Shown here: in pieces, positions 1 through 14,605 of the stretch
Position numbering within the stretch: position 1 is the stretch's first letter
Layout: each line of letters begins with the position of its first letter
NCBI GenBank assembly: GCA_003647375.1
Contig: QMMS01000088.1
Coordinates: 1-14,605, forward strand
Direction: 5' to 3'
Source of the DNA: Deltaproteobacteria bacterium
GTDB lineage: Bacteria; Desulfobacterota; Desulfobacteria; Desulfobacterales; B30-G6
Length of the DNA stretch: 14,605 nucleotides
Notes under the pieces: model-generated
The model's input: the letters and a program-made list of their open reading frames with translations, nothing else
Database searches by the model: none
What the model was told of the DNA's origin: nothing
Position numbers and translations under genes: made by a program

Positions 1-9
1 CACTTTGCG

Positions 10-62
10 AAAAAATAAATGAAAATTCAGCGGGAAGCCTTAACCGACGCTATTTATTTTTT
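10..62 (-). terminator. Possible terminator after the histidine kinase gene
   Basis: An 11-bp perfect inverted repeat, AAAAAATAAAT at 10-20 and ATTTATTTTTT at 52-62, encloses a 31-nt loop that also holds a short AGCG/CGCT pairing. Read on the minus strand it lies just after the kinase stop codon at 78-80 and ends in a T-rich run. The stem is AT-only and the loop long, so termination is plausible but not strongly supported. Confidence 0.35.
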
Positions 63-77
63 TACCGGGAACTGCTG

Positions 78-2255: not shown

Positions 2256-2265
2256 CGTTTCACCT

Positions 2266-2306
2266 ATAAAATCGTTTTGCGATTTTATCAAACACGACAG
2301 AGTCGC
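2266..2306 (-). repeat. Two-hairpin palindromic element, copy 1, in the kinase leader
   Basis: A perfect 9-bp inverted repeat (ATAAAATCG 2266-2274, CGATTTTAT 2280-2288) is followed after 6 nt by a GC-rich mini-hairpin (CGAC 2295-2298, GTCG 2302-2305). Nearly the same bipartite structure recurs at 6089-6130. Both copies lie on the 5' side of a minus-strand gene with the AT-rich stem abutting the Shine-Dalgarno sequence. It may be a leader RNA element, a protein-binding site or a small dispersed repeat. Confidence 0.75.
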
Positions 2307-2452
2307 TCTTTAGGGGGTTACGGGTATAGGGGCACAAGACAAGGGTTTGGTTGATATGCCCTTTTGAAAAAAATATGAAATCCCCTTTTCGGGATAACCG
2401 GATCGCCATTTTGACAAATGCTATAACCCGGATATTTCATAGTGTAAAAAAG

Positions 2453-2480
2453 ATTATAAGGGAATTAAGGGAAGGGTCAA
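2453..2480 (-). promoter_or_regulatory. Sigma70-type promoter for the histidine kinase
   Basis: On the minus strand, TTGACC (2475-2480) is separated by 16 bp from a perfect TATAAT (2453-2458). Transcription would start near 2445, giving a leader of about 190 nt before the ATG at 2255. The site lies between the recN stop and the kinase, so the kinase can be expressed independently of recN. Confidence 0.6.
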
Positions 2481-2514
2481 TCCGGATAAAAAGAGGATGA
2501 ATTGCGGATTTAAT

Positions 2515-4224
2515 TTAGGTATTAGTGGCCCCTGCCATCATCTCAGAAGCATGGGCCAGGGTTTTTGGGGTTACATTTTCACCAGCCATCATTCGGGCGA
2601 TTTCGTTGATGCGTTCATCATGGGTCAATTTATGGATAGTGGTCGCTGTTCTTCCGGAAACAATCTGTTTGGCGATTTTGAACTGGTGGTTACCGAATCG
2701 GGCGATTTGAGGTAGATGCGTAATGCAGATCACCTGGTGAAACCGGGAGAGTTTGGCAAGTTTGTTGCCTACCACTTCTGCAACCGTTCCGCCGATACCG
2801 GCATCCACCTCGTCAAAGATAATGGTTTCCACGGAGTCGGTCTGTGCCAGAATGGCCTTCAAGGCCAGTACGATCCTGGAAAGCTCGCCCCCGGACGCAA
2901 TATCGGACATGGGTTTCAGGGACTCTCCGACATTCGGTGCAATCAAAAATTGGGCCGTCTCAAAGCCTGCTTCCGTCAGGATTTTGTCGCCGGCAATAAG
3001 AAATGGATCCGGCACCGGATTCGAGACAACAGGAATCAGGGATGCCTGAAACCGGGTTTGATTCATCTTCAGGGTGGCAAGTTCCGTCTCTACGGAACGC
3101 GAAAGATGCTGAGCCGCTTTCTGCCGCTTCCTGGACAACCGGTCGCTCAGGGCACTAGTTCGTTCCTGAATATTCAACAGAGACTGATGGGTCTTGGAAA
3201 TATTTCCGGAAAGATTTTCGATCTGCGCCAATTCTCTTCTTATGGTGGTTTCCTTATCCATGACGTCCTGGAGGGTCTCGCCATATTTCCGTTTCAGCTT
3301 GATCAGCAAATCCATCCGCTCCTCAGCGGTCTCTAGGCGGCGTTCATCCATCTGGATCTGCCCCAGGTAAGTCCTGAGGGAAGCCACCACATCTTCTATC
3401 CTGTAGGCACTTTCCAACAAGTCCTCCGATGGTTGTTTCAACTCCGCATCAATCCGGGAGGCATTGTCCAGCTGCTTTCCCACCTCCATGATCCGCTCCA
3501 CCACCGCACCGGAAGCGTTGTAGAGAGATTCGATACTGTTGTGGACGGCTTCGTTGAGCATTTCAGCATTTTTCAGTCGTGATATCTCTTGTTCCAGCGC
3601 TGCATCCTCGCCGGGTGCAATATGTGCCGCCTGGATCTCCTGCTGTTGAAAGCGTAGCAGCTGGAGCTGTTCCTGCTGCCGGTCCTTTGTTTTAATGAGC
3701 TTATGATATTGCTGGATCAATGGCAGCAGGCGATGAAACGCCTGATGAACCTCTCTTCGAAGAGGAATAAGTCCGCCGGTCTGGTCCAGAATCTGCAGCT
3801 GCTGATCTTCCTTCAGCAAGCCCTGATGGGCATGCTGGCCCGAAATGCTGGCCATGTGCTGAGTTAATGTCTTCAGTACCTGCATGGTGGAGAGACGGTC
3901 GTTGATATACACCCGATGACGGTCATTCCTGGAAACAATGCGCCGTATCAGCAAACCATCCAACACAGAAAATCCGTAGGTTTCCATGGACTGCGCCACC
4001 AGGCTGTCCGGCGCCACCCGAAACAGTGCTTCGACCTCCGCGGTTTCGGCACCAGTCCGGATCATCTTTTCGGATGCCCGGCTCCCCAGGATGAGATTGA
4101 CAGCGTTGATGATAATGGATTTGCCGGCGCCGGTCTCGCCACTCAGGATCGTCAGACCGTCCTTAAAGGAGATGCGGATATCGTCGATGATGGCAAATTG
4201 GCGAATGGAGAGTTCCTGCAACAT
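2515..4224 (-). CDS. recN: DNA repair protein RecN
   Basis: A 569-aa SMC-like ATPase acting in double-strand break repair, close to the usual RecN length (about 550 aa). The ABC head is split by a long coiled coil, as in the family. Walker A is GETGAGKS (29-36), the middle ~155-385 is Gln/Glu/Leu-rich coiled coil, the ABC signature is SGGELSR (444-450), Walker B is TIIFDEVD (467-474), and the switch His lies in ITHLPQIA (501-508). The N-terminal LSIRQFAIIDD segment is typical of RecN. ATG at 4224 has no strong Shine-Dalgarno sequence. A terminator for the upstream operon lies at about 4318-4369, so recN probably has its own promoter in 4225-4317, where a 20-bp direct repeat sits. RecN is SOS-controlled in many bacteria, but I see no recognisable LexA box. 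It appears intact. Confidence 0.97.
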   Translation of the reverse strand: MLQELSIRQFAIIDDIRISFKDGLTILSGETGAGKSIIINAVNLILGSRASEKMIRTGAETAEVEALFRVAPDSLVAQSMETYGFSVLDGLLIRRIVSRNDRHRVYINDRLSTMQVLKTLTQHMASISGQHAHQGLLKEDQQLQILDQTGGLIPLRREVHQAFHRLLPLIQQYHKLIKTKDRQQEQLQLLRFQQQEIQAAHIAPGEDAALEQEISRLKNAEMLNEAVHNSIESLYNASGAVVERIMEVGKQLDNASRIDAELKQPSEDLLESAYRIEDVVASLRTYLGQIQMDERRLETAEERMDLLIKLKRKYGETLQDVMDKETTIRRELAQIENLSGNISKTHQSLLNIQERTSALSDRLSRKRQKAAQHLSRSVETELATLKMNQTRFQASLIPVVSNPVPDPFLIAGDKILTEAGFETAQFLIAPNVGESLKPMSDIASGGELSRIVLALKAILAQTDSVETIIFDEVDAGIGGTVAEVVGNKLAKLSRFHQVICITHLPQIARFGNHQFKIAKQIVSGRTATTIHKLTHDERINEIARMMAGENVTPKTLAHASEMMAGATNT

Positions 4225-4252
4225 AATCGAAAATTTATGTCACGATATCCTT

Positions 4253-4324
4253 TTTGTAAAGCGTAAAATAAAGTTAAATAGTATGACCGTCCCTGTTTTT
4301 GCTATTTGTAAAGCGGAAAATAAA
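4253..4324. repeat. 20-bp direct repeat upstream of recN
   Basis: Positions 4253-4272 and 4305-4324 match at 19 of 20 bases (shared core TTTGTAAAGCG followed by AAAATAAA after one variable base). They are spaced 52 bp start to start in the recN upstream region. The second copy overlaps the T-tract of the upstream operon terminator. It could be a double operator for recN or a chance tandem duplication. Confidence 0.6.
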
Positions 4325-4369
4325 AAGGACATCCGGTATCCCCGAGGGCCCCAGGACGTCCCTTTATTT
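4318..4369 (-). terminator. Hairpin terminator of the caspase/lipoprotein operon
   Basis: Read on the minus strand, AAATAAA (4363-4369) and GGAC (4358-4361) pair with GTCC (4327-4330) and TTTATTT (4318-4324). The intervening loop is GC-rich and can itself fold (CCC/GGG). The 3' arm ends in a T-rich run. It begins about 40 nt after the stop codon at 4410, the expected place for an intrinsic terminator. Confidence 0.6.
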
Positions 4370-4409
4370 GATTCACATATTGAAAAATGAACGCTGCTGA
4401 TCAATCGAC

Positions 4410-5627
4410 TCAAGGACTGATATTGACTGGCACATAATCCTCCGTTTCACCCATGTTTAAATTGTCAAACTCATTCGTTTCGATGACATCATCATCCGGG
4501 TCGATGATCAAGCCGATATAAAAATCACCCGATGCCGGAAATCCCGGCGGTGCCGAACCTGGCAGAGTGATTTGCCACTCATTGCCCGGCTGCTGATATA
4601 CGTACCAACCGCCCTGTAGACCATAACTTAAAACCCGATATTCCAATTCGTAATCCGCTTCGGAAATGTAGTTATTGGTAGATAGATATAGACTCACCCA
4701 TATGCCTGTATCTGATGGAATGTCCTCGCTGCCGTCATTAATCACCGCAAATCTGACACCCAGGGAATCACCCCAGTTGAGAGTATTGTTGGAAATCCTG
4801 AAATATACGTCGAGGTCGGGATCGCCCCAGTCATAAGTGTAAGAGGTCAGGTTGACATCCAGTGCACCGCCACCGCCGGAGGCAGTCGTATAGCTATAGT
4901 TATCCCCATAGAAATAGCTTCTGTTATCGTAGATATCGATGGGAAAGACCGTCCAATAATATGTTGTATCCGCATATAGCAAACCAGGAGGCACGGTGAA
5001 AGAAATATCATCCGCGTAAAAAATCAGTGGATCTGAAAGATCCGCTGATTCTGAGATCCAGAGCTGGTATGCAGCGGCGCCTGTAGAAGAAAGCCAGTTG
5101 AACTCGGCATTGTCTGGATCGATGTTGGAAGATGTGTCCGGAGGAGAAATGATTTCCGAAAAAAACTGATTTGCATTGATGATACCGATGTCGTTCATGC
5201 CGGTGTTTACAGAAATGCCTATGCTTGCGCCGCTGTACGTTGTTCGATCGTTCTCGTTGTGCCCATAAAACAAAAGGGTATAATCAGATCCAATTGGCAC
5301 GTCCTTAATAGTCCCAGAATAGGCATCGCAATTCCAGGGGCCTCCCCTCTTGACGACCGACGTTCCGTTAACAATCGCGACGCGGACAGTTTTGACCTCG
5401 TTCGGCAAATTTCCACAAACAGCAGCCCTGACCTGGTAATCCGTGTCACTATCCAAATCTTGATTCCACGCAACATTGAAAGCGATGGATCCTGTATCGC
5501 GGGTGGATGTGCTGTCGGAAATATCCTTACTGCCTTCACAAGCCGCCAGGATACAAATTAAGAGCAAGATGGTAATCATGAGCAACGTTTGATTTATTAA
5601 AATGTGCCGCACGTTTGTAGGTTTCAT
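4410..5627 (-). CDS. Exported lipoprotein with Fn3-like and CARDB domains
   Basis: A 405-aa secreted lipoprotein. The N-terminus has a basic start, a hydrophobic stretch (14-29) and the lipobox LAAC with lipidated Cys30. A β-rich region follows (about 45-150) with Cys71 and Cys100, which could form a disulfide. Next comes an Fn3-like domain (about 160-247; YQLWISES and TTYYWTVFPID are characteristic), a GGGG linker (251-254) and a CARDB-type adhesion domain (about 255-395). The CARDB part has VRFAVINDGS and the terminal Asp/Glu-rich IIDPDDDVIETNEFDN pattern, which often binds Ca2+. GGGGGA is well placed as RBS before ATG 5627. It is the last gene of the caspase operon, so a role in surface recognition or scaffolding for the other exported products is inferred. 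No enzymatic motif is seen. Confidence 0.85.
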   Translation of the reverse strand: MKPTNVRHILINQTLLMITILLLICILAACEGSKDISDSTSTRDTGSIAFNVAWNQDLDSDTDYQVRAAVCGNLPNEVKTVRVAIVNGTSVVKRGGPWNCDAYSGTIKDVPIGSDYTLLFYGHNENDRTTYSGASIGISVNTGMNDIGIINANQFFSEIISPPDTSSNIDPDNAEFNWLSSTGAAAYQLWISESADLSDPLIFYADDISFTVPPGLLYADTTYYWTVFPIDIYDNRSYFYGDNYSYTTASGGGGALDVNLTSYTYDWGDPDLDVYFRISNNTLNWGDSLGVRFAVINDGSEDIPSDTGIWVSLYLSTNNYISEADYELEYRVLSYGLQGGWYVYQQPGNEWQITLPGSAPPGFPASGDFYIGLIIDPDDDVIETNEFDNLNMGETEDYVPVNISP

Positions 5628-5748
5628 CGGTTTCCCCCAAGATAGGAAAGCGTAAAGAAAGGCTTATTATCGTGACTCATCTCCTTGATAACGTTGATTA
5701 GTTGGTTTCCTGTGAGGGTGGCTTACAACAGGATCCATCACGAATCGT

Positions 5749-6075
5749 TTACCAGGACACGACGACATCACCGGTGTCCCCGCCTCCGTCATCACCACCG
5801 CCACCACCACCGCCACCGCCACCTGCGACTGCTGCAACACCACCCACGAGTACCACGCCCAGTAGTGCCAAAAGCCATTTGCCACCGCCGCTTTCTTTTC
5901 CTTTCACAGTTTCAACCGGTATTTTTTTTTCGGGCAAAGACTTGATCACGGGTTTGTTCTTTGTGATATCGGCTTTGGCATACCAGTTCTCCTGGCAAAA
6001 AGCCGTCCCAACCATAAAAAAGTTGAATACACAAAGGGTGAGAAACAGGGTAAATATGGTTTGCAATCGGCTCAT
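5749..6075 (-). CDS. Small exported poly-glycine membrane protein
   Basis: A 108-aa protein with an N-terminal signal peptide (about 1-27), a short linker rich in Lys/Pro/Val (30-65), one hydrophobic segment (KWLLALLGVVLVGGVAAVA, 66-84), then ten consecutive glycines (85-94), an acidic Gly/Asp tail and VVVSW at the C-terminus. GGAG at the expected distance supports ATG 6075. The glycine run is encoded by a near-pure GGN microsatellite. The layout (TM, Gly run, short β-like end) resembles small proteins I associate with caspase-family lipoprotein genes in Desulfobacterota, but I cannot name a family and assign no function. It sits between the DUF4384 gene and the CARDB lipoprotein, and a two-hairpin element abuts its RBS. 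Low-complexity coding makes it easy to miss, but the signal peptide and RBS argue that it is real. Confidence 0.8.
   Translation of the reverse strand: MSRLQTIFTLFLTLCVFNFFMVGTAFCQENWYAKADITKNKPVIKSLPEKKIPVETVKGKESGGGKWLLALLGVVLVGGVAAVAGGGGGGGGGGDDGGGDTGDVVVSW
5794..5823 (-). repeat. Trinucleotide (GGN) microsatellite inside the poly-Gly gene
   Basis: Thirty bases of GGT/GGC codons encode ten glycines; on the plus strand this is a run of CCACCG-type triplets. Such tracts can expand or contract in steps of three, changing the length of the glycine linker without breaking the frame. Confidence 0.85.
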
Positions 6076-6088
6076 ATCAATTCTCCAA

Positions 6089-6130
6089 ATAAAATCGTAG
6101 GAACGATTTTATCATACGCGACGGTGTCGC
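6089..6130 (-). repeat. Two-hairpin palindromic element, copy 2, before the poly-Gly gene
   Basis: A perfect 10-bp inverted repeat (ATAAAATCGT 6089-6098, ACGATTTTAT 6103-6112) is followed by a second hairpin (GCGAC 6118-6122, GTCGC 6126-6130). Sequence and order match the element at 2266-2306 apart from the loop and a few bases. The AT-rich stem ends 13 nt before ATG 6075, next to the Shine-Dalgarno sequence. Confidence 0.75.
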
Positions 6131-6230
6131 TGTTTGCCGAACGATTTCCCAGATCGCAGTCTGGCGGGCTAAAATATCTGTCCCTGAATAAATTCATTTT
6201 TAATGTCGGTAGTGAAAACAATATAATGGA

Positions 6231-6274
6231 GCGGCTTTACCGCTATTAAATAAAATTAGGAAGCAATTTTATTT
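6231..6274. repeat. Third AT-rich palindrome with GC mini-hairpin at the end of the DUF4384 gene
   Basis: A perfect 10-bp inverted repeat (AAATAAAATT 6248-6257, AATTTTATTT 6265-6274) overlaps the stop codon of the DUF4384 gene. It is preceded by a small hairpin (GCGG 6231-6234, CCGC 6240-6243). The palindrome shares TAAAAT, TAGGAA and ATTTTAT with copy 2 at 6089-6112. It may be a diverged relative of the same element or, on the minus strand, a weak attenuator within the operon. Confidence 0.55.
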
Positions 6275-7120
6275 GGTGATACGGTATTGAATAAACTTCT
6301 CTGCCCGATGTGAGAGCGGGATACCCACGATATTCTTGACCAGATCGTTCACCATGGCGGAGCGCCCGTCATAAATGCCGAAGATGCCCTCTTTAAACTT
6401 GGCGGTATTGAAATGCAGGGGCTCTTTCAAGGCAAGGATGTGGATGATTTCATCCACTTTTTCTTTGCCTTCCCCTAAAAAAGCTTCCAGCGTGATCCCC
6501 CTTTTCCTGTCCATGTCGTCGGGAAAGGCAAAGGAGGTGTTGGCCTTGACGAAATTGTTTTGTTTAAACCGGTTGGGGAACAGAATGATGGCGGTTTCAT
6601 CTTCCAGGATGTTGAAAATCGAGAGATAACAGTCTCTGCTGGGGGTCACCCTGATTTCAATGAGATCCCCCTCCTTGAAGACGGTTCGGTTGAGCTCAGC
6701 CTCGAGCCTAAAAAAAACATCGATTTGCCCTTTTTCCTTGATCACGTTGGCCCGCATCGTGACTTTATAGGCCAGGTAGGGCGCCTCTCCTTTGTCCTTG
6801 GCCGGTATCAGTTCGATTTCTTCCTTGATAATCTCCTGCCCGATCACCTTTCCATGCGGGATGGTGCGGATGACATCGCCGGACACATGGTAGTTGATCA
6901 CCATAGTTTCCGACAGAATATCGACACCCACGACCTTCTCGACGGCCTCCCGCCTGGCATTGGCAATGGCCATTTTGCGCGCTTCGTTTTTGGTGACATT
7001 TTCGATGGGAGCGATCCCGTTCACGGTTACCCATTCGGAATCCTGCGAAAACACCGGATTATTGGACAGCACCAAGGCTATGCTGCAAAAGAAAAAAATA
7101 GATAAACATTTCGTTTTCAT
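6269..7120 (-). CDS. Exported DUF4384-domain protein
   Basis: A 283-aa protein with a cleavable-type signal peptide (1 to about 25, before QDSEW). Residues about 28-130 resemble the LPP20/FlgT N-terminal fold: a VTVNGIAPIE strand, then a helix with EARKMAIANARREAVEKVVG, then YLAYKVTMRANV. Residues about 138-215 match DUF4384, with GDLIEIRVTPSRDCYLSIFN and the FPNRF motif typical of this domain. DUF4384 is often linked to caspase-family peptidases, serine/threonine kinases and other envelope proteins, but its biochemical role is not known to me. It starts 36 bp after the caspase gene stop codon, with only a weak RBS, so it is likely cotranscribed. It probably acts in the periplasm or at the outer membrane alongside the caspase lipoprotein. 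No catalytic motif is visible. Confidence 0.88.
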   Translation of the reverse strand: MKTKCLSIFFFCSIALVLSNNPVFSQDSEWVTVNGIAPIENVTKNEARKMAIANARREAVEKVVGVDILSETMVINYHVSGDVIRTIPHGKVIGQEIIKEEIELIPAKDKGEAPYLAYKVTMRANVIKEKGQIDVFFRLEAELNRTVFKEGDLIEIRVTPSRDCYLSIFNILEDETAIILFPNRFKQNNFVKANTSFAFPDDMDRKRGITLEAFLGEGKEKVDEIIHILALKEPLHFNTAKFKEGIFGIYDGRSAMVNDLVKNIVGIPLSHRAEKFIQYRITK

Positions 7121-7156
7121 AAAAAATCATACACCAATTTTATGTATAAATAACAG

Positions 7157-8464
7157 CTACTCGATAACCCGCGACACCGATATATCCTTCAGATCTTCCA
7201 TTGAGGGCGATATAAAAGGGGTCTGCTCCCTTCCCATCCGCCGCGCTGCACGTGTCACATGCCTTGTGACATAAGTGTAGATTTCCTTGATGGTAACAAA
7301 GCGATCCTCGTTCTCGTCAGCTTTACCGCTCAATGCGCGCAGGAGATAATAGGTGAAGAGACCATGCTCCTCTTTGGGGAGCGGGTTGCTGGTCTGTCCG
7401 CCGGTGGCAGCGGTCAGCGCAATCACCTCCTGGGTGGCCAGGCCGATATCTTCGACCTTGAGAAGTGCCGGCCTCGAGCCTTTTGTCAGCATCTCAGCCG
7501 CCCGGGCGGCCACACCGCTGAAACAGGAGTCCAGAAACACATACGCCTGGTTGATGTCGAGAGCATTGATTTCCCTGTAGAACTCTCTCAATTTATAACC
7601 GGTTTCTTCGATAAAGAGTGTATCCCCGTCATACGGTACCAGGTAGGGGGCACCCTTTTCCATGTCCGGTGCACCGTGACCTGCAAAATAGACATAAAGG
7701 GTGGTATCCTTGCTGACATTTGCCGGAATAAAACTCCTGAGATACCCGCTGATTCGCGCCTTCGTGGCATCGCTGTCGATGAGGGAGATGATGTTGTACT
7801 CCGGCACGCCCAAAATTCTGTTGAAGTATTCTTTGATCACCAGGGCATCTTTACGGGCAAAATCGACCCGCGGCAGGTGCGCATAATCCTCGATGCCGAT
7901 AATCAGCCCCCAGTCATCGGGAAAAATCCGCCGGGTTACCGCAACAGGCGCAGCAACAGTTACAACCTTTTCCTCAACAATGGAAAACTTCTTGGCCTCG
8001 AGCATATCATTGTCAAAATATACCTTGAGCTGCCATTCACCAGGCATTTCCTGGGCTTTATCACCCTGTATGGACAGGTTGTGCCAGGCGGTACACTGTT
8101 TAGTATAATGTCCCCTGCTCGCCTTGACACGCGTATTGCCCGTCGCGTAGTAGAGCTTTCCATCCGGACCATACCACTCCCAGCGAACCTTGTGGCTACC
8201 CGACAGATTCTCGAGATTTAGATGGGCGAAAACCGCCTTGTCTTTTGTGGAAAAGCGGTTCGTCGCGGTGGTGGGGACCCCCAGGTTGCCGGAGACACTG
8301 ACGCTCTTGGAGAGAGTCGTTCCCACATAACGAAATTTTGGGGTCTTCTGTATGGTTTTGGAACCACCGCAGGAAATCACCATCAAGATTAGAACCGGGA
8401 GCGTGAGGCCGATTATAACATTTCTAAAACACCGACGGGGCCATTTTTGATTGGTTGCTTCCAT
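7157..8464 (-). CDS. Caspase-fold (peptidase C14 / metacaspase-like) lipoprotein
   Basis: A 435-aa predicted cysteine peptidase. The N-terminus is a signal peptide ending in a lipobox (VISC, lipidated Cys32). Residues about 40-165 form a β-rich domain (VRWEWYGPDGKLYY, GEWQLKVYFD) of the kind placed before bacterial caspase domains. The caspase p20-like domain begins at about 182 with DWGLIIGIEDY. The catalytic His263 lies in YVYFAGHG and Cys314 in YVFLDSCFSG, so the dyad is intact. LTAATGGQTS (350-359) and the FTYYLLRAL helix continue the fold. AGGTGG lies 4 nt before ATG 8464. It is the first gene of a four-gene operon with a strong upstream promoter. Because it is exported, the likely substrates are envelope or extracellular proteins rather than cytoplasmic ones. 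Metacaspases usually cut after Arg/Lys; specificity here is not proven. Confidence 0.93.
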   Translation of the reverse strand: MEATNQKWPRRCFRNVIIGLTLPVLILMVISCGGSKTIQKTPKFRYVGTTLSKSVSVSGNLGVPTTATNRFSTKDKAVFAHLNLENLSGSHKVRWEWYGPDGKLYYATGNTRVKASRGHYTKQCTAWHNLSIQGDKAQEMPGEWQLKVYFDNDMLEAKKFSIVEEKVVTVAAPVAVTRRIFPDDWGLIIGIEDYAHLPRVDFARKDALVIKEYFNRILGVPEYNIISLIDSDATKARISGYLRSFIPANVSKDTTLYVYFAGHGAPDMEKGAPYLVPYDGDTLFIEETGYKLREFYREINALDINQAYVFLDSCFSGVAARAAEMLTKGSRPALLKVEDIGLATQEVIALTAATGGQTSNPLPKEEHGLFTYYLLRALSGKADENEDRFVTIKEIYTYVTRHVTRAARRMGREQTPFISPSMEDLKDISVSRVIE

Positions 8465-8563
8465 TTCGCCACCTATGCGCTATTCATTGAGGGAAAACAG
8501 ATATGAATAGAAATTTATGGTTTTTGGAAGAACTGAGCTGGATTCTCAAGTGGACAAATAATG

Positions 8564-8592
8564 ATTATAATAGAATAAATATAACAAATCAA
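8564..8592 (-). promoter_or_regulatory. Sigma70-type promoter of the caspase operon
   Basis: On the minus strand, TTGATT (8587-8592) is followed by a 17-bp AT-rich spacer and a perfect TATAAT (8564-8569). The predicted start near 8557 gives a leader of about 92 nt to ATG 8464. The near-consensus fit suggests fairly strong, housekeeping-type expression. Confidence 0.65.
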
Positions 8593-8604
8593 ATGATTTT
8601 TGTT

Positions 8605-8642
8605 CCGCAGACCGCCCAGACAAACCAGCTTGAGGTTTGCGG
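8605..8642. terminator. Nested hairpin after the sugar kinase gene
   Basis: An outer CCGCA (8605-8609)/TGCGG (8638-8642) stem encloses CAAACC/GGTTTG with a 7-nt loop (AGCTTGA). It lies about 30 nt after the FGGY kinase stop on the minus strand and could end its transcript, but no T-run follows on that strand. Confidence 0.35.
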
Positions 8643-8672
8643 GTAACCGGTTTGCAGAAAACAAGGGGACGT

Positions 8673-10232
8673 TTAACCGGGGTAACCGGTGATCTCGCGA
8701 ATACGTTTGTAAAGCGGCTTCAGGTGCTTGTACATCTTTTTATAAACTTCGTGGTAGAGTGCATCGTACATCTGGTGTGTCTTCGGATCGGGCTCGAACA
8801 CTTCCCCTACACGTGTCATGGCTTTTACGGCGGATTCAAAGCTATCATGAAAACCGAGACCAACGGCCGCATCGATGGCAGCGCCAAGAGCGGATGTTTC
8901 ATAGATATGCGGTTTCCCGGTAGGCAGACCAAAGACATCTGCAGTGAGCTGCAGAGCATTATGGCTCTGGGAGCCACCCCCGGATACACGCAGACTATTG
9001 ACGGATGTCCGGCTACGTTTCTCGATCCGTTCCTTTCCCTCCCGCATTGCAAAGGCCAGCCCCTCGATAATGGCACGATAGAGGTGGGCCCGGGTGTGAA
9101 TGTCCCCAAACCCGATAATAGCCCCCTTGGCTTCCGGTCCCGGAGATTTCAATCCCGGTGTCCAGTATGGCTGGAGAACCAATCCCATGGAGCAGGGCGG
9201 AATATCCTCCAGCAGGTTCTCAAACAGTGTCTCCGGCGCCAGGCCCATTTTCCTGGCTTCTCGTCGCTCGGGATGACCGAATTCCTCCTTGAACCAGTTG
9301 ACCATCCAATATCCCCTGAAAACCTGAACTTCCACGGTATGATACCCGGGAACGGCCGATGGATATGCCGGTAACAGTGATATGGGCTCGATATATTTTT
9401 TATGGGTAACGTTGATGGTTGCAGTGGTACCATAGCTGAGGCATCCCACGGAAGAGTCAAGGCTACCGGACCCGATAACCTCACAAGCTTTATCGGCTGC
9501 GGCGGCAATCAGAGGGAGATCTTTGGGAATGCCGGATTCTAAAGATGCTGCCCTGGTGATGGTGCCCAGTACCTGACCCGGCGGCACCAGGTCCGGCAGC
9601 ATTTCCCTTTTTATGGGAAGACACCGCCATTTCCAGTCCCAAGAAGGTGCCCAGCGCATGTGCCGGTAATCGAAGGGGACATACCCGACCTGGCATCCAA
9701 TGGAATCAACAAACTTTCCGGTAAGTCTGTGGGTGAGGAATCCGGAAAGGAGCAGGTATTTATGGGTGTTTCTCCAAAGATCCGGTTGGTATGCATGAAT
9801 CCAGTTGGCTTCAGCCTCTGCCTGAAAATAGGCAATGGTGTCGTTAAGCCGGGCCAACCTGAACAGAAACCCCCAGGGACCGCCGATGAATGGCAACCCA
9901 TGTGTCTTACGCTGATCGAGCCACAGAATGGCCGGTCGCAGGGAAATGCCCTTTTGGTCGACATTGATGACCGTGCCCCTCTGGGTGGTAAGGGTTACGC
10001 CCGCTATCCGTTCCTTGAGCTGATCGTTCTGTTTCCAAAGAGCCTGGCATGCCTGGCAAAGCGCATTCCAGAACACTTCGGGGTCCTGCTCTGCCCAGCC
10101 GGGTTGTTTTGAAAAATAGGGCTCGAACCCCACCTGCTCCTTGGCCAGCAGGGTGCCTGTTCCATCGAAAACAATCGCCTTCAGGCTCTGGGTGCCGTTG
10201 TCGATGGCCAGTATCAAGTCTTTTACGGACAT
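8673..10232 (-). CDS. FGGY-family carbohydrate kinase
   Basis: A 519-aa ATP-dependent sugar or polyol kinase of the xylulokinase/glycerol kinase superfamily, normal in length. The N-terminal phosphate-binding motif is [16 protein letters not shown]. The likely catalytic Asp247 is in [14 protein letters not shown]. The C-terminal nucleotide-binding half has [36 protein letters not shown] and [13 protein letters not shown], as in FGGY_C. ATG 10232 is chosen; an in-frame GTG two codons earlier (10238) is an alternative, and neither has a strong RBS. No isomerase, epimerase, transporter or regulator gene adjoins it, so the substrate cannot be named. The conserved core is intact. A MITE-like element lies just upstream, between this gene and the potassium channel gene. 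Confidence 0.92.
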
Positions 10233-10254
10233 ACCCACTTTTCCATAATATATC

Positions 10255-10401
10255 TAGTGTCCGTCCAGAAATGAGGATTTTTACGTGAGATCAAGGCGGA
10301 CGACAGATTTAAGCCGGAGTAATAGCGTGCTATTTTGAGGAGTTAAATCATGGTGTCCAACGCCGATATCGCGGAAAAAGACCATTTGTGGATGGGCACT
10401 A
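10255..10401. mobile_element. MITE-like element with imperfect terminal inverted repeats
   Basis: This 147-bp non-coding block starts with TAGTGTCCGTCCAGAAATGA and ends with the inverse of TAGTGCCCATCCACAAATGG, so the terminal inverted repeats agree at about 15 of 20 positions, best at the outer ends. Inside are a small hairpin (AATAGC 10321-10326, GCTATT 10329-10334) and no ORF of note. The right end stops 1 bp from the potassium-channel stop codon at 10403. From memory, similar sequence is dispersed in Desulfobacteraceae intergenic regions, but I cannot confirm this here. No clear target duplication is visible. Confidence 0.6.
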
Positions 10402-10402
10402 T

Positions 10403-11413
10403 CTAATATTTGTGCCTAACCCTCGTAATACTCTCCACCTCTCCCATCACGATGAGCGTTTCCCCGGATGCCAGTATACGTGCCGGGTCAGGGTTAAACT
10501 CGATCTCCTTGTTGTTGTTTCTTATACCCAGCACCAAAAGATCAAATTTCTGCTTGAGCCCTGCATCGATAATATTTTTATCCACCAGCGGAGATTTATC
10601 GACGATACTGATCTCATGGATTCGTAAGTTGCCCCGGCTGCTGCGTAGCATGCTGTCCAGAAAATCGACGGCGGCAGGACGGATCATCTCGGATGCCATC
10701 CGCAACGCCCCGATATAATTGGGTGAAACAATGCTGTTGGCACCAGCTCGTCGCATCTTGGCTTCGAGTGCGGTATCGATGACCCGGCTGATAATCCGGA
10801 TTCTGCTGTTTAGCATCCGCGCACTCATGGTGGTAAACAGGTTATCCTTGTCCGATGCCAGACTGACGATGACGCCTTTGGCGTTTTCAATTCCGGCCGC
10901 TTTTAAATTCGCGTCATCCGAGGCATCTCCCATAACGTAGAGCAGATCTTCCCAGAGATTTTTACAACGCTCGATGATCTCTTCGCTTTGCTCGATGAGA
11001 ACCACGGGTTCACCGTTGAGAATCAATTCAGCCAGTACCGGCCGCCCGGTTTGCCCACCACCACAGACAATATAATGATCCTTTAGCTTCTGAATTTTTT
11101 TTTCCATTCTCTTTTTCCTCAAAACCCCGGAAAGTTCGCCTTCGATGATGATGGCGGTCGATGTACTGATCCCGTACAAAATGATCCCCATCCCGAAGGT
11201 GATAAGGATCATGGTGAAAATCTCGGCCGGGACGTTTCCCGTAACTTCGAGGACCTCGCCGTACCCAACCGTAGTAAGGGAAACGACTGTCATATAAAGG
11301 CAGGTCATGAAACTGTGCTGCGTTTCATAAATAAAGTAATACCCGAAGCTCCCCACCAAGATGACGCAGAAAATTGTGAACATGATGTAAAAGAGACGCC
11401 GTTTGATTTCCAT
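10403..11413 (-). CDS. Two-TM potassium channel with RCK (TrkA-N/TrkA-C) domain
   Basis: A 336-aa K+ channel subunit, expected to form a tetramer in the inner membrane with an intracellular gating ring. TM1 is about 7-28, the pore helix and selectivity filter read TTVGYG (filter TVGYG, 48-52), and TM2 is about 62-84. The RCK/TrkA-N Rossmann domain starts at about 112 with HYIVCGGGQTG (GxGxxG-type nucleotide loop) and acidic residue Glu141 ends the second strand. A TrkA-C domain spans about 255-330. This is the MthK/Kch-like layout. ATG 11413 has no clear RBS. The last codons abut the MITE-like element, so the native 3' end may have been altered, although the TrkA-C domain appears complete. 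No Trk or Kdp partner is nearby, which fits a stand-alone channel. Confidence 0.94.
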   Translation of the reverse strand: MEIKRRLFYIMFTIFCVILVGSFGYYFIYETQHSFMTCLYMTVVSLTTVGYGEVLEVTGNVPAEIFTMILITFGMGIILYGISTSTAIIIEGELSGVLRKKRMEKKIQKLKDHYIVCGGGQTGRPVLAELILNGEPVVLIEQSEEIIERCKNLWEDLLYVMGDASDDANLKAAGIENAKGVIVSLASDKDNLFTTMSARMLNSRIRIISRVIDTALEAKMRRAGANSIVSPNYIGALRMASEMIRPAAVDFLDSMLRSSRGNLRIHEISIVDKSPLVDKNIIDAGLKQKFDLLVLGIRNNNKEIEFNPDPARILASGETLIVMGEVESITRVRHKY

Positions 11414-11424
11414 ATAATCTTGAT

Positions 11425-11511
11425 ACCTGAATTGATGAGATAGAAGTCATAATCTCTTTAACCTATAGGGTCATAAGACTCAAGTTGAAAATATTTCTAA
11501 CCTGAATTGAT
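11425..11511. repeat. 12-bp direct repeat upstream of the potassium channel gene
   Basis: ACCTGAATTGAT occurs at 11425-11436 and again at 11500-11511, 75 bp apart, within the 5' region of the channel gene. A weak minus-strand promoter (TTCAAC, 16 bp, TATAGG) lies between the two copies. The repeats could be regulator sites; the evidence is only their position and identity. Confidence 0.4.
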
Positions 11512-11580
11512 ATGTGTACTGGAAGGTAGGTCTATGCCAATCGGAACGTTATTCCGGCACACACCCTAATGATGATACAG

Positions 11581-11624
11581 CCGACCCGTACGCCAATTAC
11601 AATCGTAATAGGCGTACGGGTCGG
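11581..11624 (-). terminator. Very long hairpin at the end of the hgc operon
   Basis: CCGACCCGTACGCC (11581-11594) and its perfect 14-bp complement at 11611-11624 flank an inner ATTAC/GTAAT stem with a 4-nt AATC loop, giving a nearly unbroken 20-bp stem. It begins directly after the stop codon of the 108-aa gene (11625-11627). It probably ends or protects the hgc transcript, although no T-tract follows on the minus strand. Confidence 0.7.
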
Positions 11625-11951
11625 TTAAAATTCCACCTGGTGAACCATTTCCATGTTTTGAAGAATCTTTCGAATTTGTTTTTGAACGGTTTTCTCAATA
11701 ATAGGTTCAACACGGGAGATGGGGGCACCGGAATCATCCGTTTTATACTTCAGATCATGAACAACACCGGGCACCCGGGCAAAGCAGACACCACCGGTAC
11801 CACAGCAGGTGCTGTTCAGTACGGCACAACCAACATAATAGAGGATGGTTTTTTCTTGAAACCGGACAGTACCTTCCTTTAAAAAGGCATACTCCCCGCC
11901 GATGGCGGTAACTTCACTGTTTAACCGAAAGTGGGTGTGATCTAACAGCAA
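11625..11951 (-). CDS. Conserved-looking Cys-containing protein coupled to hgcB
   Basis: A 108-aa protein I do not recognise. The TTG start at 11951 is supported by GGAGGTG at 11956-11962, four nt upstream; no usable ATG exists until residue 100. The start overlaps the end of hgcB by 10 bp: its RBS is made from the codons for Gly91-Gly92-Val93 of HgcB. This implies translational coupling. Residues 36-62 carry a compact cysteine motif, GCAVLNSTCCGTGGVC, with Cys42, Cys49, Cys50 and Cys56, followed by RVPG. The C-terminal third is a predicted amphipathic helix (VEPIIEKTVQKQIRKIL). No signal peptide or TM segment is seen, so it should be cytoplasmic. The paired cysteines next to hgcAB suggest metal or thiol chemistry, but that is inference. 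Confidence 0.78.
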   Translation of the reverse strand: MLLDHTHFRLNSEVTAIGGEYAFLKEGTVRFQEKTILYYVGCAVLNSTCCGTGGVCFARVPGVVHDLKYKTDDSGAPISRVEPIIEKTVQKQIRKILQNMEMVHQVEF

Positions 11952-12232
11952 TCGACACCTCCGCAGGAAGCCGCCTCCTTACCTTTGATCCATGTCTGGA
12001 TAATATATGCAGCACATCCGACGCCTGGATCGACAGCGATAGCCTCCTCCGGACAATTGGTGGCACAGGCCCCGCATTCCATACACCCGTCCCTATCCAC
12101 GATTCCGGCTTTATGGGCCGCTATTTCAAAGACACCGTGCGGGCAGACAATTTCACAGGTCCCACATCCGGTACAGGCCTCTACGTCGAGCTCCAGGGTG
12201 GTTACATTCGAAAGATATCTAAATTTTTCCAT
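11942..12232 (-). CDS. hgcB: HgcB, mercury methylation ferredoxin
   Basis: A 96-aa 2[4Fe-4S] ferredoxin that supplies low-potential electrons to the corrinoid of HgcA during Hg(II) methylation. Cluster motifs are CTGCGTCEIVCP (Cys20, 23, 26, 30) and CMECGACATNCP (Cys50, 53, 56, 60). HgcB hallmarks beyond an ordinary ferredoxin are present: Cys73 in the VGCAAYII segment and the C-terminal vicinal pair Cys95-Cys96, residues implicated in handling Hg(II). AGGAG overlapping the hgcA stop codon supports ATG 12232; hgcA ends 8 nt upstream, so the two are coupled. The open frame continues upstream without a stop, but that part is the antiframe of hgcA and is not the start. Its 3' end overlaps the next gene. 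Confidence 0.96.
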   Translation of the reverse strand: MEKFRYLSNVTTLELDVEACTGCGTCEIVCPHGVFEIAAHKAGIVDRDGCMECGACATNCPEEAIAVDPGVGCAAYIIQTWIKGKEAASCGGVDCC

Positions 12233-12240
12233 CCGTTCTC

Positions 12241-13446
12241 CTAAACAAACATCGACCCAATCCAGCCGACAATCGATAAAATTATCGCCCCCGCCTGAAA
12301 GGGTATGGCAATCCGCATCTCTTTTTCCACACCCGAAGGGGAAGTATAGGGCGTCGACCCGGTAAAATTCATAGCCAGATGGGAACTGATGGCGATGATA
12401 AAGAAAATCAGGGCGGCTATTTCCACAGAATCGATCGCCTTCCCCAACATCAGTACCATACCAGCCCCCATTAACAGCCCGGTGATGGCACCCTTGACCG
12501 CAAAGGCCTTGCCAGGTATCCAGGGCAGCAGCACCGGCGCTGCCACGGCGCCCGAAAATATCCCGGCGACACATGCTGCGATCATGATGAGTCCGCGGCT
12601 CCAGGCAAGACTGATGGAAAAAAGGCTGGGTCCGATACCTGAAAGGATAAATCCTGCCAATAAAATCCATAACAAGTATTTACGCAGAAACGATAGTTCC
12701 ACCGGCACGAGTATCAGTCGCTCCAGAAAAGTAAATGTCACCCGACGCATGGATTTATCGGCTTTCAATCCAGCCTTTAAAAAAGACCTGATGTCCCTCG
12801 CCTGAATCGGGCCCCAAGTCACCTTGAATCCGCACCCTTTTTTAACCTGTTTTCCGGAAACACCCGTGGCCGACAATTGGGGTAAAATCAGTCTTTTATG
12901 GCTCACGATCTCCTGCAGACGGGCCATTTTGACTCGGCGGATCACTTCATGGGTGGAAAATGTTTTTTTCCCGGCCGCACACCAGACATTGACGCCACGT
13001 GTATCCAGGACCAGGATCCAGACATGCTCCCCTTGGAGTTCCTTGCGAAGCGCATCGAAACTGAGCTTATAGTTCCCCGTTACCAGGACGGGTGATGTCG
13101 GGGTTGTATCACCCATACTGTAAAGCCCTGGTGCCACCTTATACTGGCTTCTGTTGATACCCAGACGAACCTTGATGGTACCAAGAATATCGGATATCTC
13201 GGGTTTTGGCTTGATTTTGGGAACAGATCCCGCTGCGGTGTCTATAAACCCTTCAACAAAGCTGCAAAGATCATAACCCGGTCTTTCAAATGGACTGCTG
13301 GCAGGGCCTGGTGGCGGGCCACAGCAAACATCATCCACCGGTGCTTCTTTGTAAATCGGCAACATTTCCGTTAGCCCTTCATTGGCACATGGGGTCTTGG
13401 CAGGGCCACAGCATCCGTTGTTATATTGGGTTTCCTCTGACATCAT
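12241..13446 (-). CDS. hgcA: HgcA, corrinoid mercury methyltransferase
   Basis: A 401-aa membrane corrinoid protein that transfers a methyl group to Hg(II), producing methylmercury. The diagnostic cap-helix motif NVWCAAGK lies at 153-160, with Cys156 as the lower-axial cobalt ligand. The corrinoid-binding domain (about 85-240) includes PVLVTGNYKLSFD and WILVLDTRG. About five TM segments follow (257-277, 283-303, 316-336, 341-360, 380-400), as in the family. The N-terminus is longer than in Desulfovibrio-type HgcA (about 340 aa), with two Cys-Cys motifs: GCCGP (11-15) and VCCGPPPGPASSPFERPGY (40-58). I recall the second being common in other HgcA proteins; the first is less usual. AAGGTGAA at 13453-13460 supports ATG 13446, within the end of the preceding gene. 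Gene order and the following hgcB confirm the assignment. Confidence 0.97.
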   Translation of the reverse strand: MMSEETQYNNGCCGPAKTPCANEGLTEMLPIYKEAPVDDVCCGPPPGPASSPFERPGYDLCSFVEGFIDTAAGSVPKIKPKPEISDILGTIKVRLGINRSQYKVAPGLYSMGDTTPTSPVLVTGNYKLSFDALRKELQGEHVWILVLDTRGVNVWCAAGKKTFSTHEVIRRVKMARLQEIVSHKRLILPQLSATGVSGKQVKKGCGFKVTWGPIQARDIRSFLKAGLKADKSMRRVTFTFLERLILVPVELSFLRKYLLWILLAGFILSGIGPSLFSISLAWSRGLIMIAACVAGIFSGAVAAPVLLPWIPGKAFAVKGAITGLLMGAGMVLMLGKAIDSVEIAALIFFIIAISSHLAMNFTGSTPYTSPSGVEKEMRIAIPFQAGAIILSIVGWIGSMFV

Positions 13447-13449
13447 AAA

Positions 13450-13638
13450 TCATTCACCTTGTACTTGATCTGAATCCGACTGTTCACCCGTTGCTTTGGA
13501 AAGACAGATGCGGCACCGATCATCGCTGCACATCCGGCAGGAGAAACAATTGCCGCAGGAATGCTTTTTGAGAGATAAAGCATTCTGCTCCGGCACGTAT
13601 ATCTTGCCTTTGATATCTGGAAGGGTAACGAAGGGCAT
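13450..13638 (-). CDS. Small Cys-rich protein coupled to hgcA
   Basis: A 62-aa protein I cannot assign. GAGGAGG seven nt upstream of ATG 13638 is a strong RBS, and the stop lies 3 nt before the hgcA start, so the hgcA RBS is inside this gene. The first 20 residues (LPDIKGKIYVPEQ) look like a short β segment. The core is a six-cysteine cluster, Cys28-x2-Cys31-x2-Cys34-x2-Cys37-x4-Cys42-x2-Cys45, in SCGNCFSCRMCSDDRCRICL. The tail is acidic and Gln-rich. Spacing differs from a standard ferredoxin (CxxCxxCxxxCP) and suits a Zn or other thiolate metal site, or Hg(II)/thiol handling. There is no signal peptide or TM segment. As the first gene of the hgc operon it is a candidate accessory protein; this role is inferred from position only. 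Confidence 0.82.
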   Translation of the reverse strand: MPFVTLPDIKGKIYVPEQNALSLKKHSCGNCFSCRMCSDDRCRICLSKATGEQSDSDQVQGE

Positions 13639-13675
13639 CCGGCATCCTCCTCACAAACACTGAGCTGCTTAACCT

Positions 13676-13704
13676 ACCCTAATAACGATTGTTAGAAATG
13701 TCAA
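13676..13704 (-). promoter_or_regulatory. Promoter and operator-like palindrome of the hgc operon
   Basis: On the minus strand a perfect TTGACA (13699-13704) is followed by a 17-bp spacer and TAGGGT (13676-13681), a poor -10. A palindrome TAAC-GATT-GTTA (13683-13694) fills the spacer, where a repressor or activator commonly binds. The poor -10 fits a promoter that needs an activator or responds to a regulator. No regulator gene lies beside it. Confidence 0.45.
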
Positions 13705-13757
13705 AACTGGTCTTTATTTCGGCAACTTGTAACGCCCAATATATGAAAAAAGGGTTC

Positions 13758-13786
13758 TTGATATACCATGCCATTTATATTATGCT
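13758..13786 (+). promoter_or_regulatory. Promoter for the LPP20-like lipoprotein
   Basis: TTGATA (13758-13763), a 17-bp spacer and TATGCT (13781-13786) form a fair sigma70-type promoter, with a start near 13793 and a leader of about 97 nt. A 10-bp palindrome, TGAGCGCTCA, lies in the leader at 13838-13847. Confidence 0.5.
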
Positions 13787-13889
13787 TTTCAACACATTGT
13801 GTGAACATGAGCATCTCTTTTTATCAACGACCCAAAGTGAGCGCTCAAGTTAGAAACGAATCTTGTGTGTTTTAACCTGCGGGGACTGC

Positions 13890-14348
13890 ATGACCTGCCA
13901 GAACAAACGGATACTTCAATTCGGATGCTGCATTATCTTGATTCTTCTTACTTTTGGCTGTGCATCGACACAGAAGTGCGAGTCCAAGGAAGTGCCTATC
14001 TGGTTAACCTCCATACCACATGATGATATCTACTTTTATGCTGTTGGTATTTCAGGACAAACAAGAAATGTCAATGATGCATGGATTCAAGCAGGAAACC
14101 GGGGAAGAGCCGAACTCGGGCGTATCATCTTTTCACATGTATCGAGCCAGGATATGATTGTCAACACGTCCAGGGGCCAGTATTCCAGCCAGCTTATCGA
14201 TATTTTGTCCGATACGGAACTCAACTACACGGAAATTATCGAGCGCTGGTATGATCCGTGTGGGGATAATGGCCCACCCTATTATTATTACATCCTGGTA
14301 AGGATGGATAGAAAAACGGCCTCCGCTGTATTGAGAAGGTTGAATTAA
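13890..14348 (+). CDS. Small LPP20-like lipoprotein
   Basis: The only plus-strand gene, 152 aa. ATG 13890 has GGGGA six nt upstream and is preferred over the TTG at 13863. The N-terminus is a signal peptide with a hydrophobic stretch ending in LTFGC, so Cys24 is the probable lipidated residue; Thr at -3 and Phe at -2 make this lipobox somewhat unusual. The mature part resembles LPP20-type outer membrane lipoproteins: PIWLTSIP, then YFYAVGIS, a helix with DAWIQAGNRGRAELGRII, and a final strand YYYYILVRMD. Function in this family is poorly known. It is divergent from the hgc operon and shares only the 250-bp intergenic region with it. A terminator follows directly. Confidence 0.82.
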   Translation: MTCQNKRILQFGCCIILILLTFGCASTQKCESKEVPIWLTSIPHDDIYFYAVGISGQTRNVNDAWIQAGNRGRAELGRIIFSHVSSQDMIVNTSRGQYSSQLIDILSDTELNYTEIIERWYDPCGDNGPPYYYYILVRMDRKTASAVLRRLN

Positions 14349-14377
14349 CCCTCGTTGCAAAAGCCGGAGGGTTTTAT
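14347..14377 (+). terminator. Intrinsic terminator of the LPP20-like gene
   Basis: AACCCTC (14347-14353, overlapping the stop codon) pairs with GAGGGTT (14367-14373); a small GC/GC inner stem with AAAA loop may form. The hairpin runs into TTTTAT. It is in the correct place and orientation for the gene ending at 14348. Confidence 0.75.
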
Positions 14378-14391
14378 CACCAGGTATATGA

Positions 14392-14465
14392 ACCCGGGAA
14401 GTACTGAGTAGATACCCGGGTCCAAAGGGCCCGGCACTGATTTAATCCTGTAAGGGATTAATTTT
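14392..14465 (+). other. Cluster of overlapping hairpins downstream of the LPP20-like gene
   Basis: ACCCGGG (14392-14398) can pair with CCCGGGT (14415-14421). That right arm is also part of a stronger hairpin, CCGGGTCC (14416-14423) with GGGCCCGG (14427-14434) around an AAA loop. The two are mutually exclusive. A third hairpin, TTAATCC (14442-14448)/GGATTAA (14455-14461), runs into TTTT, like a terminator. The layout resembles an attenuator or a small structured RNA, but no gene follows within the window. Confidence 0.5.
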
Positions 14466-14486
14466 ATGCACACTCAACTTATGATA

Positions 14487-14605
14487 AATTCGAAATACGA
14501 ATATCGAATGCTCAAATGATTCAAACATAGTGTTTGAACTTGCATCGCCAAGGTCTTGTTTTGATCATTCGAATTTTGATCATTAGGTATTGTTTAGGAT
14601 TTCGA
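14487..14605. repeat. AT-rich repeat-like intergenic sequence, cut by the window end
   Basis: The stretch has a run of TTCGAAATACGAATATCGAA-type sequence, a small inverted repeat (TTCAAACA 14520-14527, TGTTTGAA 14531-14538) and a direct repeat of TTTTGATCATT at 14561-14571 and 14576-14586. It ends in TAGGATTTCGA. This composition resembles dispersed AT-rich palindromic repeats I recall from Desulfobacterota and Planctomycetes intergenic DNA. No ORF is seen. Confidence 0.45.

Follow-up and report, generated by a model that had tools for sequence, protein, structure and literature searches.

The window analyzed here covers positions 1 to 14,605 (14,605 nucleotides, nt) of contig QMMS01000088.1 of a Deltaproteobacteria bacterium (assembly GCA_003647375.1). 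Its minus strand carries a predicted pair of mercury methylation genes, hgcA and hgcB, packed between two small genes that we call f62 and f108 (Table 1). This packing had been proposed in the initial annotation and was recovered at the same coordinates and spacings. The ribosome-binding sites that the annotation had placed inside or touching the preceding gene are likewise borne out, with a purine-rich Shine-Dalgarno-like stretch 5' of each of the four starts that lies inside or touches the preceding gene for hgcA, hgcB and f108. Within one taxonomic family, hgcAB is present or absent at this fixed slot while f62 and f108 stay. The two small genes represent separate families that mostly occur elsewhere. 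An operon-like arrangement next to hgcAB therefore says little in favor of a role in mercury methylation, and a family in which hgcAB is present or absent between the same neighbors lets loss and replacement be compared cleanly in nature.

Table 1. Features of the hgcAB locus (positions in the window unless another locus is named).
Feature	Position	Strand	Description
f62	13450..13638	-	62-aa, six Cys, N-terminal GKIYVPE motif; no named family; 3-nt gap to hgcA
hgcA	12241..13446	-	predicted corrinoid protein; NF040863 433 bits, CdhD PF03599; N-terminal extension with two CCG motifs; 8-nt gap to hgcB
hgcB	11942..12232	-	predicted dicluster ferredoxin, GVGC and terminal CC (cysteine type); NF040864 120.5 bits
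f108	11625..11951	-	108-aa, TTG start, CCGxGG core invariant in the family; 10-nt overlap with hgcB
20-nt inverted repeat, 4-nt loop	11581..11624	-	directly 3' of the f108 stop; 95% complementary
TrkA_N/TrkA_C ion-channel gene	10403..11413	-	Pfam domains
RecN-like gene	2515..4224	-	Pfam
LPP20-like lipoprotein gene	13863..14348	+	below Pfam cut-off; divergent from f62
TGA-type HgcB frames	L203 from 2306; L213; L075 from 2503	minus for L213	probable selenocysteine type in other genomes

The window pair is predicted from its sequence to be an ordinary hgcAB. HgcA matches its family model with 433.1 bits over residues 75-400 of 401 (curated cut-off 275), HgcB passes the curated cut-off of 99, and hgcB directly follows hgcA. 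The HgcA translation contains NVWCAAGK, and we take N(V/I)WCAAGK to be the cap-helix motif of HgcA. HgcB has two CxxCxxCxxxCP clusters (CTGCGTCEIVCP and CMECGACATNCP) and its GVGC falls at the Cys73 site. The window differs from the pair as described by the two models in its two flanking small genes outside named families and in the N-terminal extension of HgcA, which spans ~74 residues (13225-13446). At least one CC precedes the HgcA core in 36 of 62 HgcA rows (three of the 62 being duplicates, and Firmicutes-titled loci included), with none in rows L052-L064 except duplicates of other lineages. The CCG extension could be a further Hg-binding site. Parts of the literature describe the HgcA corrinoid as methylated by S-adenosylmethionine (SAM), the HgcB clusters as reducing cobalt, and the Cys tail as proposed to handle Hg (PMC11588087, PMC7305189), with Cys93 of HgcA conserved (PMC11588087). 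The P. mercurii HgcAB made in E. coli was active with SAM as donor according to passages of PMC11588087, which state the source of reducing equivalents as unknown and report that assays of the purified complex included added host lysate. The distribution of hgcAB is described as patchy and its native role as debated in passages of PMC10349881. Elsewhere, HgcA and an upstream membrane protein occupy a single 618-aa open frame in the partly N-masked locus L003 (5239-7095).

The comparisons draw on 389 genomes of the same order, 162 of them with HgcA above cut-off, and on gene calls that were simple longest-open-reading-frame (ORF) picks. The window was placed by similarity in the family of genome G139, represented in the set by four genomes (G001, G056, G104 and G139), each of which has f108. 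Among named genome records, the closest is L001 from G001, a Deltaproteobacteria metagenome-assembled genome. The gene order in G139 (L083) is f62 - hgcA - hgcB - f108 - TrkA. Genomes G104 (L082) and G056 (L084) have f62 - f108 - TrkA - RecN - histidine kinase with a gene-free interval between f62 and f108, and G001 has hgcA - hgcB - f108 - TrkA on a contig that starts inside hgcA. An LPP20-like gene adjoins f62 in the window, G139 and G056. By TrkA identity, G139, G104 and G056 fall together (86-88%; G139-G104 88%, G056-G104 87%), apart from the window and G001 (72-74%), and f108 agrees. The family is thus split into two groups, and hgcAB occurs in both of them. The f108 stop and the TrkA start overlap (TAATG) in G139, G104 and G056, with a longer spacer in the window and G001. 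Were genes to be paired in function by how tightly they overlap, f108 would belong with TrkA rather than hgcAB.

The interval between f62 and f108 in G104 matches the 3' end of the G139 hgcB, including the stop codon, which is in register (score 31). Against the whole hgcAB of G139, none of 1000 shuffles reaches 31 and the best shuffle scores 30. The other 74 upstream regions of f108 score at most 22 against the end of the G139 hgcB. There are good but not final grounds to regard the G104 interval as a putative remnant of the 3' end of hgcB, which would favor loss.

The distribution of f108 argues against a tie to hgcAB. It has 41 entries among 5.8 billion proteins searched, the window's own included, and occurs at 81 places in 79 of the same-order genomes, a spread that identifies it as a conserved family rather than a chance ORF. 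A phylum-wide draw matched it in 41 of 247 genomes. Surroundings were inspected at all 81 places for up to 6 kb per side, many ended by contig ends, and homologues were not found mostly beside hgcAB but at only two of these places, in G001 (L022) and G139 (L083). Co-occurrence tests were uncorrected for kinship or completeness and used a hand-transcribed list of 161 HgcA-positive genomes, compared with the tallied 162. HgcA is found in 42 of the 79 f108 genomes and in 119 of the 310 that lack f108, an odds ratio of 1.8 (p 0.02), leaving 37 f108 genomes without HgcA above cut-off. The co-occurrence of f108 is higher with f62 (odds ratio 4.7, p 1.3e-8), which also exceeds that of f62 with HgcA. 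At the f108 loci, the most populous neighbor clusters are acyl-CoA-dehydrogenase-like genes (12 loci), CoA-transferase family III (11), histidine kinases (10), thiolases (8) and a synthase-like gene (8), with seven of each eight of the last two in the f108 direction. Domain searches covered a single representative per metabolic group, four in all. The recurrent association with acyl-CoA genes may be a clue to the function of f108 and hints at a tie to acyl-CoA metabolism, not metals. The AlphaFold model is confident and beta-rich (predicted local distance difference test, pLDDT, 89). A fold search against the PDB gave no convincing match, the profile found nothing below E 0.1 among PDB sequences, and neither Pfam nor NCBIfam assigns a family. 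The data lend no support to a role of f108 in Hg(II) delivery or in the maturation of the corrinoid; f108 is most likely a beta-rich protein uninvolved in Hg methylation and is clearly best read as an independent neighbor of hgcAB. An assignment of f108 as a GCAxxG-type protein was rejected as Pfam support is absent. Directly upstream placement of f108 to the synthase-like gene and thiolase is seen in L148, L123, L125, L150, L156, L141 and L121, and the synthase-like gene of L148 has an OB-fold tail. In L127 (G244), f108 has an internal stop, and the ORF scan showed neither f108 nor hgcAB.

The f62 family is defined by the pattern C-x2-C-x2-C-x2-C-x4-C-x2-C, with all six Cys kept in 33 of 33 members of the alignment A6. 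The protein search returned eight entries including the window's own, and f62 is present in 184 of the 389 genomes, which marks it as a conserved family and not a chance ORF. Matches in the phylum-wide draw (68 of 247 genomes) are in many cases weak and confined to the Cys region. No Pfam or NCBIfam family matches f62 above cut-off, a weak match to NADH_4Fe-4S (E 0.067) was not accepted as membership, and its profile found nothing below E 0.1 among PDB sequences. The predicted model is poor (pLDDT 55), and a fold search was therefore not made. The protein heads open frames with Pyr_redox_2 (G100, G195), rubrerythrin (G236), an ABC ATPase (G240) and a TIM-barrel (G081), and f62 adjoins FdhD in G209. 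The Pyr_redox_2 frames (L186 484-1644, L192 1118-2284) appear thioredoxin-reductase-like by eye; these two have no Met between their parts, and some of the fused frames may be gene pairs without an intervening stop. Together with the Cys pattern, this context makes a small redox module, binding metal or iron-sulfur clusters and serving several settings, the most likely identity of f62. An unannotated six-Cys family that is sometimes joined to redox domains deserves study in its own right.

A position near hgcA is a minority arrangement of f62. Paired by eye on the places listed, with the weakest f62 and some hgcA places outside that listing, f62 precedes a co-directional hgcA at a distance of up to ~0.9 kb in at least nine confirmed genomes (G139, G157, G155, G212, G120, G033, G201, G092 and G189), compared with 98 that have both f62 and HgcA and 184 that have f62. 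Its homologues are thus found mostly away from hgcAB, as are those of f108, and both stay adjacent at the hgcAB-free locus, and a location mostly away from hgcAB is an outcome that the initial annotation had named as counting against its proposal. The junction varies from a 1-nt overlap of the f62 stop and hgcA start in G139 (TAATG) to a 13-nt gap in G155, and an 81-aa ORF separates the two genes in G189. In G157, f62 and HgcA lie in a single 647-aa open frame (L195 2512-4455), possibly a fusion or a read-through of two genes. Genomes G038 and G019 carry f62 and hgcA on the same contig ~7-8 kb apart. A convergent gene, putatively HtpX-like by its sequence, follows hgcB in G157, G155, G212 and G120, and the f62-HtpX neighborhood occurs without hgcAB in G071, G235 and G191, giving a second slot of presence and absence. 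At the hgcAB-free f62-HtpX locus of G235, a search revealed no significant hgcAB scar (shuffle fractions between 0.065 and 0.745, 200 shuffles). Co-occurrence of f62 with HgcA across the 389 genomes has an odds ratio of 2.6 (p 8.6e-6), and 86 of the 184 f62 genomes lack HgcA above cut-off. A single clade of the 11 f62-linked HgcA was not rejected (p 0.55) and had a slightly higher likelihood than the free tree; the linkage is compatible with inheritance within one HgcA clade.

We consider it about 65% probable that the window holds an ordinary hgcAB in a conserved locus, f62-[hgcA-hgcB]-f108-TrkA, in which the small genes are neighbors, and that hgcAB was lost in G104 and G056. The family ancestor would have carried hgcAB between f62 and f108. 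G104 and G056 would have lost it from this slot; they carry instead a different hgcAB, of probable selenocysteine type, located elsewhere. The tight spacing could reflect shared expression, which is not proof of shared function. A single loss suffices if G104 and G056 are sisters. Several points weigh against this explanation. The TrkA identities do not fix the branching order of G139, G104 and G056, and unless G104 and G056 are sisters, two losses would stand against two gains. The contig of G001 starts inside hgcA, so f62 is unseen there. The G104 scar was spotted by eye before scoring and is significant only against the G139 hgcB; against the hgcAB of the window, 0.38 of shuffles reach its score, and it scores 15 against the hgcB end of the window and 19 against that of G001, to which an unrelated region scores 26. 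A 13-nt match of G056 to the start of hgcA was rejected as a scar because controls equal it. The co-occurrence of f62 with HgcA and their linkage at two loci are what an accessory role would also give, the poor f62 model means that its metal or redox role leans on sequence and context, and the counts of f108 neighbors carry no correction for how common genes of these kinds are in the genomes concerned.

It is unlikely, in our assessment, that the f62-f108-TrkA arrangement is older and that hgcAB entered it separately in the lineages of the window and G001 and of G139. Both small genes are common without hgcAB, HgcA trees show much horizontal transfer (passages of PMC7305189), and the TrkA identities allow event counts to tie if G104 and G056 are not sisters. 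Such gains would nevertheless require two insertions at the same junction and leave the 3' remnant of hgcB in G104 unaccounted for. Furthermore, in quick trees of 59 rows, which represent part of the HgcA found (L065, L070 and L073 dropped as duplicates), the likelihood rose by 13.6 relative to the free tree when the HgcA of the window, G001 and G139 were constrained to a single clade.

The initial annotation had regarded the small proteins as candidates for Hg(II) delivery or cofactor maturation. That f62 and f108 were co-opted as accessory factors, delivering Hg(II) to HgcAB or loading its cofactor, seems to us improbable. The tight spacing, the overlap of f62 and hgcA in G139, the at least nine genomes with f62 near hgcA and the odds ratio of 2.6 are consistent with such a role, and the host lysate in the assays of the purified complex leaves room for a host factor (passages of PMC11588087). 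However, f108 is beside hgcAB at two of 81 places, G104 and G056 keep both small genes with no hgcAB between them, and f62 occurs in 86 genomes without HgcA above cut-off. According to the same passages, E. coli BL21 lysate with P. mercurii HgcAB formed methylmercury, so the small proteins are not essential there (PMC11588087). The proposal is thus unsupported for f108 and loses ground for f62, for which the linkage to HgcA at two loci and the co-occurrence speak in its favor. Because f62 is common without HgcA and is kept at the hgcAB-free locus, the data do not single it out, and f62 is probably an independent neighbor as well. Its position upstream of hgcA at two different loci, together with the co-occurrence, therefore leaves a modest chance for an accessory thiol or redox role. 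With the source of reducing equivalents for HgcAB stated as unknown in PMC11588087, a six-Cys redox protein encoded 5' of hgcA might matter there. The literature passages searched, with most subscription papers outside the search, hold no mention of f62- or f108-like proteins beside hgcAB.

The loss in G104 and G056 would have been accompanied by replacement. In both genomes hgcA is on another contig, and in the 59-row tree their HgcA group with L075 (G362) at a Shimodaira-Hasegawa-like approximate likelihood ratio test support of 100, apart from those of the window, G001 and G139. A single clade of the five HgcA of the window and the four family members was rejected (p 2.5e-5). The HgcB of G104, G056 and G362 have an in-frame TGA at the Cys73 codon of the window, with the frame continuing to the CC end. 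A hairpin, TTATCCAGGTCTGGATAA, follows the TGA in all three; the window and G139 differ there. For L213, the sole case among the three to be scored, folding of the segment gave z -2.85. Both selA and selB are above cut-off in G104, G056 and G362, and also in the cysteine-type genomes G001 and G155; selenocysteine is therefore allowed, not proven. The three HgcB are probable selenoproteins. HgcB with GVGU is listed as a selenoprotein in a passage of PMC13188914, and Haft and Gwadz are cited regarding selenoprotein HgcB in a passage of PMC11588087. The TGA site and downstream hairpin match this type. The HgcB of the window differs in having Cys; within the family, the TGA type belongs to the members without hgcAB at the f62-f108 locus. 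ArsR-family genes lie upstream of hgcA in both G104 and G056, and the hgcA contig of G104 has a fragment matching phage integrases (E 2.5e-5, below the Pfam cut-off). A stronger version, by which the family swapped hgcAB through deletion of the native cysteine type and use of a foreign selenocysteine type with its own ArsR, f62 being a redox partner of the cysteine type only, appears improbable.

Small genes directly 5' of hgcA are known, and passages of PMC7438021 and PMC10349881 describe upstream ArsR-like, PrlF/AbrB-type or other putative regulators. A hypothetical protein or putative regulator precedes hgcAB in 112 genomes in passages of PMC7438021. Although f62 shares this position, it differs from these regulators in its six-Cys cluster and in having no helix-turn-helix match; neither this domain nor AbrB was found by Pfam or NCBIfam in the 33 A6 members, the window included. 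It is very improbable that f62 is a leftover of an ArsR-type hgcAB regulator or works alongside one. In favor of this, hgcA has an ArsR gene 5' of it in L002, L203 and L213, and the metagenomic f62 homologue P0049 (67% identical, not among the A6 members) continues into part of an ArsR helix-turn-helix, its C-terminal half. However, P0049 has the look of a join made by deletion, and most f62 genes lie at a distance from hgcA. The longest contig has 15,663 bases for P0049 and equally for P0004, an f108 homologue with 94% identity.

The inverted repeat after f108 has no T tract and is a possible transcript end or RNA stabilizer. Promoter-like matches in 11300-14000 (four found, 4.0 expected) and terminator-like matches in the same interval (four found, 2.8 expected) were not above shuffles, and an Rfam search of the window gave zero matches. 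The G+C content of hgcA (51%), hgcB (53%), f62 (48%) and f108 (45%) compared with the window (49%) gives no clear sign of recent import. At 5749-6075, the window encodes a 108-aa protein with a long glycine run and no Pfam match, unrelated to f108. Between TrkA and RecN, a caspase-domain (Peptidase_C14) protein adjoins a DUF4384 protein (7157-8464 and 6269-7120). Neither has a match in L001, and in G104 and G056 RecN directly follows TrkA.

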